Below are positions 59,373 through 63,738 of a stretch of 64,000 nt of DNA, in pieces. Source of the stretch: Chondrilla cf. caribensis (taxonomy: Eukaryota > Porifera > Demospongiae > Chondrillida > Chondrillidae); assembly GCA_964020155.1 (NCBI GenBank), contig OZ026554.1:3287827-3351826 (forward strand). The letters are read 5' to 3'. The stretch's first letter is position 1, and each line of letters begins with the position of its first letter. The translations under genes and the position numbers were made by a program. The notes under the pieces are model-generated. The model was not told the DNA's origin, made no database searches, and saw nothing but the letters and a program-made list of their open reading frames with translations.

Positions 59373-62300
59373 ATGAAGAGGCAAAAACCGACATTGTCAA
59401 TCTATTCGGATCAATGCTGTAACTGTGACAATAATTTGGATAGTCAAATGCTGGCTGGATCTAATTCTCACTTTGCTCACAAAAGAAAGTCTACACCCCA
59501 ATGTCATGCCATTAGCTTCTTCTTCCGAATTGTCAGTGTACTCCTCTGTGTACTCCTGTGCTCATCAACACCCAGTGACACATGGGGTATTCAGGACCTT
59601 GTCATATTCATACTGGTAGTATTCACAAGTGATACAGAATTGGTTTTAAGTGGCATTCTTTGCAAAACCGTATGTGTATTTGTACACTCAGTCTGGATGA
59701 AATTGTGTGTAACAACAAGGTCGGTTGTAGTGTTCAAGATGCCATCAAGTATGCACCATGATCGTAAATGTTCCATAGTTCTCTTTTGGACAAATGATGC
59801 ATTTCAGTACTTGCATTGGTTTACCGTTCAATATACTAAGTTACGAAGTAAAATCATGATTGACGTCTTTGTTGACCATCTCAAATTGAGCACTGTGAAA
59901 AATAGTACTGAATGTACTGTGGAGCTAAATGACATATCAAGGAGTTTTACGCACCCGTTTCAAAATGAAAAAGGCATATTACTTCCCTACGAACGTCAAG
60001 AGGTTTGTACAGTAAGAGTATGCAAAATAAATAAAGTGTCCACTCTCTTCAATTCTTGTTTCTGTGGGGAAGGTACACAAATCTTTGTAAAGACCCTAAC
60101 TGGCAAGATGATCACTCTTGAAGTGGCACCAAGTGATACTGTTCAGAAAGTGAAGGCCAAGATCCAATACAAGGAAGGCATTCCACCAGATCGGCAACGT
60201 CTCATCTTTGCCGGTAAGCATGTACAAGATGGTTATACTCTCAGAGACTACAACATTCAAAAGGATTCCACTCTCCATTTGGTGCTTTGTCTCTGTGGGG
60301 GTGGTACACAAATCTTTGTGAAGACCCAGTCTGGGAGGATAATCTCTCTTGAAGTGGAACCAAGTGATACTGTTAACAGCGTGAAGGCCAAGATTCAAGA
60401 AAAGGAAGGTATTCCACCAGATCAGCAGCGTCTCATCTTTGCTGGCAAAAAACTGGAAGATGGACATTTACTTAGTCAATGCAACATTCAAAATGAATCC
60501 ACTCTCCTCTTGGCACTACGTCTATCCCACAGTGTGAGACATATGCAAATTTTTGTGAAGACTCAGACTGGTGAGAAATTCACTCTTGATGTTGAACCAA
60601 ATGACACCATTAGATTTGTCAAGGTCAAGATTGAGTATCAGCGTGGCATTCAACCAAATTGGCAGGAACTCACCTTTGCTGGGAATATCCTGGGTGATTC
60701 TTGTACTCTCAGTGAATACAACATTCCAGAGCAATCATTTCTTGTACTTCAAGTCTGTGATGCCGCAACTACTGATATGCAGATTTTTGTGAAAGGTATG
60801 AGGGGTATAATACACACTCTTCGTGTGGAACCAGATGACACAGTTGAGAATGTGATTGCTATGCTTAGGGAAAAAGCAGAGTATGTATCAGGTCATCACT
60901 GTCTAATCTTTGCTGGCAAAAAACTGAAACACAACCGTACTCTCAGAGACTACAACATTTTAAAGCAATCTACACTCCATCTTGTACTCGATTTTTACCG
61001 AGTGCAATACTCCAAAGACAGGTTTACTGATCAATATCAAACAGCCTTGCAGCAAAATCGAGTGGTGTCATTGAGGATAGCAAAAGCTGTCACTACAGGA
61101 CCTCCTCGTGTGGGGAAGACATGGCTGAAGAGTCTTCTGTTGCGAGAACCTCCTCCTGGAAACACCCTAAGTACCCCAATCTTTGACAAGGCAGTTACTA
61201 TTTCTGTACCAGACCCAGTGCCGACAAAGAGTCTGTACCACAGCGATTGTGTACTTCTGACATCGTCCTCCAGTAGATGGAGAGTGGTGCGTGATGTGAC
61301 AAGTTTGAAGTCACTTTTGAATGTTGTAAAACCTGAATCAAGTACAAAGCCAACTTCAGATCCACCATCACCTGCCCAAGAACCTACCGATCATCCATCT
61401 TCGTCAAAAAGGCGGAAAACAACACCTATGGTAGAGCAAATGCCTCAAATGGATGAGGAAAGTGATTTAGTTCGTGTGGGTGTAGTGGATGAAGTGCATG
61501 ATTTTGATGAATTGGGTGAAACAATCCAAGAAGCACTCAGCAAACTTGCCAGTGATGATACGATACAAGATATTGACCTACAAGATGAGAGACTGCTCCA
61601 GTTCATTGACACTGGGGGTCAACTCTCCTTCCACGATATTCTTCCTCTTTTTCTAACCACACCAGCTGTTCTTCAAGTCTTCAACATGTCAGAACCTCTG
61701 GACTCGTATCCCACTAATGCCATGAGGCTGGAATTGGGACAAGTATCGTCAGAGAAGTCTCCTTTCACTAATATGGAGCTCCTCATCAGGTCTCTTACCA
61801 GTATTCATTCTCTTCCAGACAGACCTTTGAATATCCCAGAATTCGGCATTGTAGACACTTTGCACAAATCACCCACTCGAGTCCTTGTTATCGGTACCCA
61901 CAAGGACAATTTGGAAGTACCTGTGCTCTCTGAGTCCATTGACAGTATCAGTAAATCCATTGAAGATGCTCTCAAGGACAAACCCTTCAAGCAAGATGTG
62001 ATCATCCATCCAGAGACTGGCCATTACTTCCATCCAGTCAACAATGCACTGTATAGTCAAGAAGTGGACGAGATGTCAGAAGCCAACCAGCTGGTGCACT
62101 TCATTAGAAACAAAATAGCCACATGCTGTGAGCATACAAGGTGTGATGTCCCTATCACCTGGCTACTGTGTCAGGCCATTCTCAGCATGCACTCAAGGAA
62201 GCCATTTTTCACATACAGTGAATTTCTCACACTTTGCCTGAAGCATCGTTTTGTGAAGACTACCACTGAATGTGCTGCCATGGTTCACTTCTTCCACACT

Positions 62301-63738
62301 TTGGGTCTTCTCTTTCACCATCACACTGGACTCTGCAGAGAAGTGGACCACTTGATACCAGGCCAGGATGACTCCAACAGCACATGTTTGGTCTTCACAG
62401 ACCCCTCCTTCCTGTGTCGCAACATCACTAAACTCTACACTGTTCAGTTTGAGAAGCATCCCGGTGGAAGAAAGAAAGAGTTGAAGGATAAAGGCATCCT
62501 TACTCTTCACACACTGCAGGAAGTTGGCATTGACCGAGAACTCGATGGAGAGTGGCTCTTGGCTCTAATGTCCACTCTTGGCATCATAGCAGCTGTTTCT
62601 GGAAGGAGGAGGGACCAAATAGAGTACTTTATGCCGTCAGTATTGCTTCCAAGTGAAGAGATACAAGTTCCTGAGAGGACAACAGTATCTGAAGTGATGG
62701 CTATTTCCTTCAAGGACAGGAACTACATTCCTTGTGGAGTGTTCCCAGCAGCAGTCACTTATCTGCTGTCAGAGCCGAAATGGTCCATTCTCACAGAGTG
62801 GTCCTCACGAACCACAATGAACTTTGAGGTGGGAGGAGCAGACTTTGTCAAACTGACAGACACCAACACCTTCATCAGAATGGTGGTCTCCAGTGATGTT
62901 GACCTGTCTCCAACCAGGTATCTTTCCTATCGCGACACCGTATTCACAGCTGTGGAGCAGTCTTTCTCCAGACTGTATAGAGTAGAGGATACCACAGGGA
63001 TCCTTGTTGTAGGGATGGAGTGTCTTCTAGAGGAACATCGCGACAGGAGTAAGCACATTGCTCGACTTGCTGTCAGTGATGACCCTGATGCTTACCATTT
63101 GAGATGTTCTGGATTTACCAAAGAATTGCGTGGAAAATTTGAAGAGATGTTCACGAGGTTGTCGCACAAGGTATGTGTTGAGCTCCTATAGGAAGGCTTG
63201 ATTTTAATTATGCATTACATCAAATTTGTACTTATTAACATGTACATGATGTCATTGTACTCTTTCATGCCGATAGGCTGTCGTTTCTGAACAACACACA
63301 GCTAGAAGAGAAGAGATTTTGAGTGAGTGCATGGGCCCTTGGTACATCCTCATCGCTGGTATACTTATCATTACAGCTTTGTATCATGATCATTGTGTAC
63401 AGATGCACAGGTATGACACTTTATTCCTGTAGCCACCGAAACCATGAACTGAATTGAGCCCTTATTTCTTTAGTATGTAGTACGTTTAAGCGAAATGACA
63501 CATCACTTCATACACTGGGATTGCAGTTAGGGTTAGGTCCTTTTGTCATATGTCTCCCTACACCTGCTATGTTCTATTCTATACATGACTGAAACCACAG
63601 TAATTATTATTTTGTTTTTGATCTTCACTTGTGGTACGGTACCTACGTATAGTTACTTTGTGCTGTATTAGCATCAGATTCAGTCATTGACAACTACATT
63701 GTTGTATTTTTTTCTCTTTACAATACAGATCCAATTGA
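59373..63738 (+). CDS. Four ubiquitin-like domains fused to a Roc-type GTPase, COR-like region and C-terminal transmembrane helix
   Basis: Exons 59373-63170, 63277-63410 and 63729-63738 join in phase to 1,313 aa from the first in-frame ATG; the frame stays open upstream to 59175. Residues 1-234 are unrecognised with hydrophobic stretches (SVLLCVLLCS, LVIFILVVF). Four ubiquitin-like domains follow (about 235-311, 312-390, 391-468, 469-544), each opening QIFVK and containing FAGK/FAGN; similarity to ubiquitin falls from first to fourth. Next comes a GTPase with P-loop GPPRVGKT (576-583), a long linker with SKRRKTTP, DTGGQ (746-750) and G4-type THKD (842-845). A COR-like winged-helix region (from about 925, DVPITWLLCQAIL, FFHTLGLLFHHH, YFMPSVLLPSEE) follows, then a membrane helix WYILIAGILIITALY (1288-1302) and a short tail. 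Roc-COR proteins are GTP-dependent dimerising switches. No LRR, kinase or death domain is seen. Function unknown; a ubiquitin-linked signalling role is inference. Confidence 0.88.
60075..61005 (+). repeat. Tandem array of four diverged ubiquitin-like coding units (about 231-237 bp each)
   Basis: Starts at about 60075, 60306, 60543 and 60777. Unit 1 keeps Lys at the equivalents of K6, K11, K27, K29, K33, K48 and K63 and ends LCLCGGG. Unit 2 ends LRLSHSV and unit 3 ends LVLQVCD, without diglycine. All lie in one exon, so this is an in-frame fusion and not a polyubiquitin precursor cleaved to identical monomers. Confidence 0.9.

Follow-up and report, generated by a model that had tools for sequence, protein, structure and literature searches.

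A single open reading frame in the 64,000-nucleotide stretch of DNA from the sponge Chondrilla cf. caribensis analyzed here (hereafter the window) joins a row of four ubiquitin-like (UBL) units to a Roc-COR GTPase module, and is predicted to be spliced to an exon that likely encodes a death domain. We tentatively read the product, with not quite an even chance of being right, as a switch of the innate-immune type whose array permanently offers a docking site or bait. What the sequence supports directly is the fusion itself, the number of its copies, the derivation of the units from ubiquitin, and the loss of Gly-Gly beside the GTPase. The window corresponds to C9:3287827-3351826, this contig and those called C3, C5, C14, C15, and C22 below belonging to the same 137 Mb, 37-contig genome. 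A preceding sequence-only reading had proposed four UBL domains, Roc, COR, and a membrane anchor in one protein, of which the fusion in one frame is retained here and the C-terminal anchor is given up.

The frame (59175-63191, forward strand, as are all features of the gene) runs for 1338 codons, for which the chance from base composition alone is about 4e-35, and its ATG is at 59373. Exon 1 extends from there to 63170 (1266 codons), with the donor GTATGT at 63171, and encodes a leader (59373-60077), UBL units 1 to 4 (60078-60302, 60309-60533, 60546-60764, and 60780-61004), the Roc GTPase domain (61062-62141, approximate limits from the structural model), and the COR domain (62142-63170, likewise approximate). 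A three-exon model of the gene closes in frame and predicts a protein of 1378 residues, whose likely order is hydrophobic leader, four UBL units, Roc, COR, and likely death domain; the exon formerly proposed near 63738 is not needed in this model.

Pfam places ubiquitin (PF00240) over four stretches of the frame (E 2.3e-85), and the model of unit 4, which adjoins the GTPase, has the ubiquitin beta-grasp fold (root-mean-square deviation of 1.3 to ubiquitin). Units 1-4 share 61, 55, 39, and 42 of 76 residues with the ubiquitin of this genome. As the sequence-only reading had stated, unit 1 keeps all seven Lys and a terminal Gly-Gly (tail LCLCGG); both R72 and R74 are replaced by Cys in it, and it is the only unit of the protein with the full L8/I44/H68/V70 set. 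The tails of units 2-4 are without Gly-Gly, so that the series CGG, SHS, CDA, and QYS does not resemble the identical cleavable units of polyubiquitin.

The nucleotide-binding motifs G1, G3, and G4 recognized earlier are all present in the protein as GPPRVGKT (61098-61121), DTGGQ (61608-61622), and THKD (61896-61907), and the Roc domain contains a disordered insert. The profile searches suggested with the sequence-only reading gave a divided answer for this module: Pfam Roc is not among the matches listed for the window protein and Pfam COR-A stays under its cut-off (E 3.6e-4; 20.9 versus 35.3 bits), whereas a profile built from the window Roc-COR and nine UBL-less relatives matches LRRK2 (E 1.1e-15) and also LRRK1 and prokaryotic Roco. 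The structure prediction suggested at the same time agrees, since the Roc-COR model resembles the structures of LRRK1/LRRK2 and prokaryotic Roco. The identity of the module rests on this profile together with the model, by which the protein is assigned to the ROCO family as a Ras-like Roc G domain followed directly by COR. The Pfam matches of the window frame (E ≤ 10, upstream exons lying outside the search) include no protein kinase and no leucine-rich repeats (LRR) before Roc, where the ubiquitin units stand instead; nor do they include a NACHT or NB-ARC ATPase, and the switch domain being Roc, the protein is not an NLR (STAND) protein.

The window gene belongs to a family. When the genome was searched for ubiquitin, two true polyubiquitin genes came out, one on C5 and one on C22, together with units densely clustered in long frames at C22:479-632 kb. 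Within C22:460001-650000, into which three runs of N fall, lie nine copies: seven are unbroken paralogues, with lengths of 1161-1595 codons and 54-67% identity to the window protein, and the other two are each split across two frames but still have the last unit and Roc-COR in one frame. The hydrophobic hairpin of the leader, Roc, and COR occur at these nine C22 loci and hence at ten with the window gene; the frame is unbroken from leader to COR in eight of the ten, and in every one of the ten the last unit lies in the same frame as Roc-COR, on which ground a transcript split between array and GTPase was rejected as the principal reading. A Roc-COR query on the genome gave at least 68 rows at E ≤ 1e-6 (61 of 98 candidates scored), 16 of which represent the ten loci, the other 52 (two from one frame) being relatives at 26-38% identity.

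Other arrangements of the same parts were observed in this genome. Further UBL units lacking Roc-COR are scattered among the C22 loci, and arrays or single units with neither a leader hairpin nor a Roc-COR match are found in the same cluster at C22:479089, 487685, 490956, 529791, 534122, and 598699. The best UBL-less Roc-COR match in the genome (L049:1150-3936) has no UBL in its Roc-COR frame, carries DTGSVDSKQR and variants as a tandem repeat separating Roc from COR, and is preceded by a frame that by eye is CCCH zinc-finger-like. Many Roc domains in frames of ~900-2900 codons, some of whose lengths may reflect runs of N, form a further ROCO-type expansion at C3:4.99-5.71 Mb and C15:1.78-3.14 Mb. 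Of the four long Roc-COR frames (2249-2480 residues), the one inspected (C5:908000-910100) was discarded as mostly N and of artefactual length.

Beyond this genome, a Roc-COR search of a protein collection yielded 91 proteins (7985 candidates scored), 79 of them with at least one UBL as called by a hidden Markov model trained on the genome's ubiquitin together with the units of the window. Twenty-four of the UBL-bearing proteins form group A, namely the window's own (P0001) and 23 at 56-91% identity, and 54 form group B at 38-46%; one further UBL-bearing protein (P0081) is excluded from the counts of both groups. Because group A includes P0001 itself and P0003, P0013, P0015, and P0018, which are contained letter for letter in the C22 copies, at most 19 of its proteins come from elsewhere. 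The number of units per protein is 1-11 (median 5) in group A and 1-19 (median 11) in group B, and the P-loop lies 25-129 residues past the last unit in 82 of the 83 UBL-bearing relatives among 115 proteins. The relatives are frames set by a gene caller, almost all of them from contigs without annotation, and their ends may be artefacts; the leader is mostly absent in group B, where the first unit is within 3 residues of the start in 46/54, possibly by frame calling. Those with a named source are from the sponges Geodia barretti and Amphimedon queenslandica and from a crinoid. In a phylogeny built on 62 Roc-COR rows, of which nine are from this genome and 53 from the 115 proteins (near-copies included), two changes are needed to explain the UBL label; P0002, whose UBL-less frame adjoins the window gene, accounts for one of them. 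The tree does not resolve how group A, group B, and the UBL-less relatives branch, and long branches are flagged in it; a single origin of the fusion fits the tree, without being proven by it.

Gly-Gly is present in 49/137 units of group A and 41/601 of group B, in the first unit of 19 of the 24 group A proteins, in only one of 75 next-to-last units (1/22 in A, 0/53 in B), and in none of the 78 last units. The first-unit Gly-Gly, together with the RLRGG left intact in 25/137 (A) and 12/601 (B) units, would suit a cleavable fusion, in which deubiquitinases release the units as in polyubiquitin or ubiquitin-ribosomal fusions and yield free ubiquitin and a GTPase; given the state of the last two units, and with the tail less conserved than any other position set in the comparison, we regard such processing as highly improbable. 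With Gly-Gly absent at the GTPase junction, ordinary tail cleavage is not expected there, and no ligase step would thus be needed to equip the receptor.

The earlier suggestion of a fixed ubiquitin-chain mimic is therefore upheld as far as fixation on the GTPase side is concerned, whereas the mimicry is not favored by the I44 surface. Identity to ubiquitin at positions 8, 44, 68, and 70 is 0.64 in group A, compared with 0.77 at other surface positions, and 0.45 compared with 0.54 in group B, with the position sets for the ubiquitin core and surfaces as we presume them to be; a mimic should keep the I44 surface, yet this is conserved less than the other surface. A true mimic of linear ubiquitin, recruiting linear-chain readers of the NEMO type under GTP control, is consistent with the derivation of the units from polyubiquitin, with a fold core kept in group A at 0.90 identity (0.98 similar), with the presence of at least one unit having exact L8, I44, H68, and V70 in 22/24 (A) and 33/54 (B) proteins, and with adjacent intact pairs in 13/24 and 39/54, respectively, when conservative changes are allowed. 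This explanation appears unlikely to us, as pairs of adjacent exact units are restricted to 4/24 (A) and 12/54 (B) proteins, and a family search for NEMO-type CC2-LZ yielded one weak fragment below the cut-off; an OTULIN family search, matching nothing anywhere, controls included, was uninformative.

The units derive from ubiquitin, with polyubiquitin genes as the probable source. For all 29 units tested from six chosen loci, the nearest DNA is the polyubiquitin gene on C22 (up to 0.95), not that on C5, the window's four units being included among the 29 despite the location of the window gene on another contig; the C22 polyubiquitin gene is ~190 kb from the C22 cluster. The commonest residues are I23/E24/S57 in group B units and V23/D24/G57 in group A units, the latter as in this genome's ubiquitin, and such lineage-specific residues suggest that the arrays have been homogenised within lineages. 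The common nearest gene, the highly variable number of units, and the drifting surface could also mark the array as a by-product of recurrent capture and copying of a neighboring polyubiquitin gene, retained to act as a spacer or to stabilize the protein and lacking any specific partner. We find this rather unlikely, since array and Roc-COR remain joined not only in all ten loci of this genome but also in a second group at ~40% identity, and the ratio of nonsynonymous to synonymous substitution rates (dN/dS; window gene versus the seven paralogues unless noted otherwise) is 0.22 for unit 1. It is 0.48 from the last unit to the P-loop, 0.58 from the P-loop to G3 including the insert, and 0.21 and 0.30 for the two parts after G3.

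The sequence-only reading had ended the protein in a C-terminal transmembrane helix, which is replaced here by a predicted splice. An exon-like stretch, beginning AVxSEQHT or AIxSEQHT and closing at a phase-1 donor, follows the frame at all nine C22 loci; its counterpart in the window is exon 2 (63277-63322; AVVSEQHTARREEIL), from which a phase-1 splice to the likely death-domain exon is predicted. The exon-2 donor is at the same place and phase in 10/10 loci (GTGAGT, at 63323 in the window, and GTAAGT in one paralogue), and the end of exon 1 is GT in 10/10, but a weak GTACAA in four. The hydrophobic stretch lies behind this donor in the predicted intron (63323-63411), and reading through exon 2 gives a hydropathy peak of 1.88 in the window and values below 1.6 (highest 1.53) in all nine paralogues; the helix (63328-63411) was accordingly dropped as the main product. 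Retention of the intron, giving a second product that ends in this stretch and is without the downstream exon, much as the sequence-only reading had it, would be compatible with the peak and with a read-through open for 51 residues; in view of the conserved donor and the absence of a comparable peak in the paralogues it seems very improbable. Candidates for an exon 3 (KWLMGQFTD..., KELVGQYTG...) were found after exon 2 in 7/9 C22 loci and not in the window gene.

The likely death-domain exon of the window gene lies at L046:259-551, that is, 259-551 bases beyond the window end. A query with the death domain of P0096, one of the UBL-less relatives ending in such a domain (P0096, 24.6 bits with a cut-off of 22.6; crinoid P0112; P0091 just under the cut-off), finds this exon at E 4e-8 and those behind the nine C22 loci at E 1e-7 to 5e-4. 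In 10/10 loci the exon is 0.8-1.4 kb downstream and its phase fits exon 2; its dN/dS is near 0.26. An eleventh, at C22:527168, stands behind a UBL array with no Roc-COR match, and all eleven terminate in WSxQ or WSIP followed by a TGA stop, with a dN/dS of 0.27 over 55 pairs. The profile of the eleven exons alone compares at 95.7% with the P0096 death domain, at 13.3% with three other death domains aligned together, at 0.2-0.9% with each of these singly, and at 0.8% at most with 59 Roc-COR slices. When the P0096 tail is included, six of the 12 members of the alignment match Pfam Death (best 6.5e-07) and 17/17 PDB matches of the profile at E ≤ 10 are death domains (best 0.021). By these comparisons the downstream exon is homologous to the P0096 death domain, and likely keeps the death fold.

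Other death-domain matches were also observed. The eleventh exon belongs to C22:523739-527410 (L034), where a four-unit UBL array is followed by the likely death exon with no Roc-COR match between, which may be a decayed copy or a variant of the UBL-Death type. A death-domain match also lies 1.4 kb downstream of the paralogue at C3:5104718. At C14:3862129-3883012, ubiquitin-like matches in frames of 310-317 residues surround a same-strand death-domain match (C14:3868740). A Pfam death search of the genome gave at least 101 matches (150 of 185 candidates scored), but none of them lies within the C22 cluster or follows the window gene, whose downstream exon came to light only with the P0096 query.

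The leader contains a hydrophobic hairpin (59508-59657) with Kyte-Doolittle peaks of 2.37 and 1.94, for which membrane insertion is predicted; if any part of the protein is inserted in a membrane, the hairpin is predicted to be a better candidate than the C-terminal stretch. The dN/dS is 0.63 ahead of the hairpin, 0.19 in it, and 0.86 in the fast-evolving part between it and unit 1, and the predicted structure of the leader is poor (pLDDT 51.4). The value of 0.86 raised the idea that the leader is an intron, which is disfavored by a frame shared with unit 1 in 10/10 loci (one of the two broken copies, at C22:547918, having a 4-base insertion in the hairpin) and in the relatives, and by the 13 and 20 stops in the other two frames of the window leader. 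A decayed ubiquitin unit may lie within the leader, ahead of unit 1.

Several points weigh against the proposed immune switch. Only the architecture and the expansion of the family, by analogy, point to an immune role. Pfam finds nothing in the downstream exon of the window, and of five other copies scanned, four reach Death at E ~0.2, below the cut-off, and one gives nothing. Without the P0096 row, the downstream-exon profile matches no PDB death domain, its one hit being an unrelated chain at E 1.3; the fold call thus hangs on P0096, a single intermediate relative. THKD was not found in one of the seven unbroken paralogues (C22:629205). The ~18 codons before the ATG, expected to be untranslated, have a dN/dS of 0.50, so that values near 0.5, including the 0.48 at the last unit, are weak evidence of constraint. 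Lastly, divergence of the array surface is equally expected under relaxed constraint, and, with the low ratio at unit 1, positive selection is not shown.

The innate-immune switch is the reading we prefer. Its order of repeat array, nucleoside triphosphatase switch, and death domain is that of animal and algal receptor candidates, the array likely occupying, by analogy, the place of the leucine-rich repeats in other ROCO proteins. In such a switch, the array would be engaged by a ubiquitin binder or attacker, either a host reader or a microbial enzyme; Roc-COR would then shift its nucleotide state and self-association, and the death domains would be gathered and recruit adaptors. A bolder proposal, possible if doubtful, is an animal immune receptor family with a hard-wired ubiquitin chain, diversified into clusters in which the units number 1-19. 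The sensor of its death-domain ROCO GTPase would have arisen from a captured polyubiquitin gene and would serve as bait for ubiquitin-attacking microbial enzymes or as a preformed chain requiring no ligase step. In animal immune signaling, ligases first build the ubiquitin chains, which then meet death domains; in the present case, a ubiquitin-like row and a likely death domain are predicted to come from a single gene, with an LRRK2-type GTPase between them. If true, a ubiquitin chain can be a genomic, evolvable part of a receptor, and the family would offer a natural system for studying the processes under the control of a Roc-COR switch and the readers of a chain for which cleavage from the protein is not expected.

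Elsewhere in the window, a 510-codon frame on the reverse strand (55382-56914) resembles aldehyde dehydrogenase by eye, and two minisatellite-like stretches at 41765-44717 are open in several frames on both strands.

The architecture of the window protein is worth comparing with those of known systems. That the array/Roc-COR fusion is undescribed, as the sequence-only reading had supposed, agrees with the literature searched (most subscription papers falling outside it), in which neither titles nor abstracts dealt with a combination of ubiquitin arrays and Roc-COR. In common with the ROCO proteins (LRRK1/2, MFHAS1, DAPK1, and bacterial Roco), the window protein has Roc followed directly by COR, with the repeats N-terminal (PMC6337361), and it shares with DAPK1 a C-terminal death domain, which is only likely here; it differs in that an array of ubiquitin folds replaces LRR, ankyrin, or kinase, no kinase having been found. 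The accessible part of the same review describes three ROCO groups with no occurrence of "ubiquitin", and the UBL-array architecture is outside these groups. COR is mentioned in prokaryotic conflict systems (PMC7159879, accessible in part). The polyubiquitin genes, the likely source of the array, also have head-to-tail ubiquitin units, whereas the units here are diverged, are without Gly-Gly beside the GTPase, and are fused to other domains. The closest precedent is the fusion of polyubiquitin to TRADD-N immune-type proteins in marine animals, with the largest TRADD-N expansion in the sponge Amphimedon (PMC8195603, which mentions a Roc domain once); both cases place polyubiquitin within expanded, death-domain-linked proteins of marine animals. 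Those proteins, however, are defined by TRADD-N, which is not among the Pfam matches of exon 1 or the downstream exons here, where a diverged copy could escape. Finally, the accessible part of PMC11378527 treats the LRR-ROCO proteins of brown algae as candidate immune receptors, and the two families resemble each other in having expanded, in the variability of the repeat array at the N-terminus, and in the immune role suggested for them; in contrast, the algal LRRs are on separate exons and their genes mostly dispersed, whereas the ubiquitin units of the sponge family are contained in one exon and its genes form a tandem cluster.

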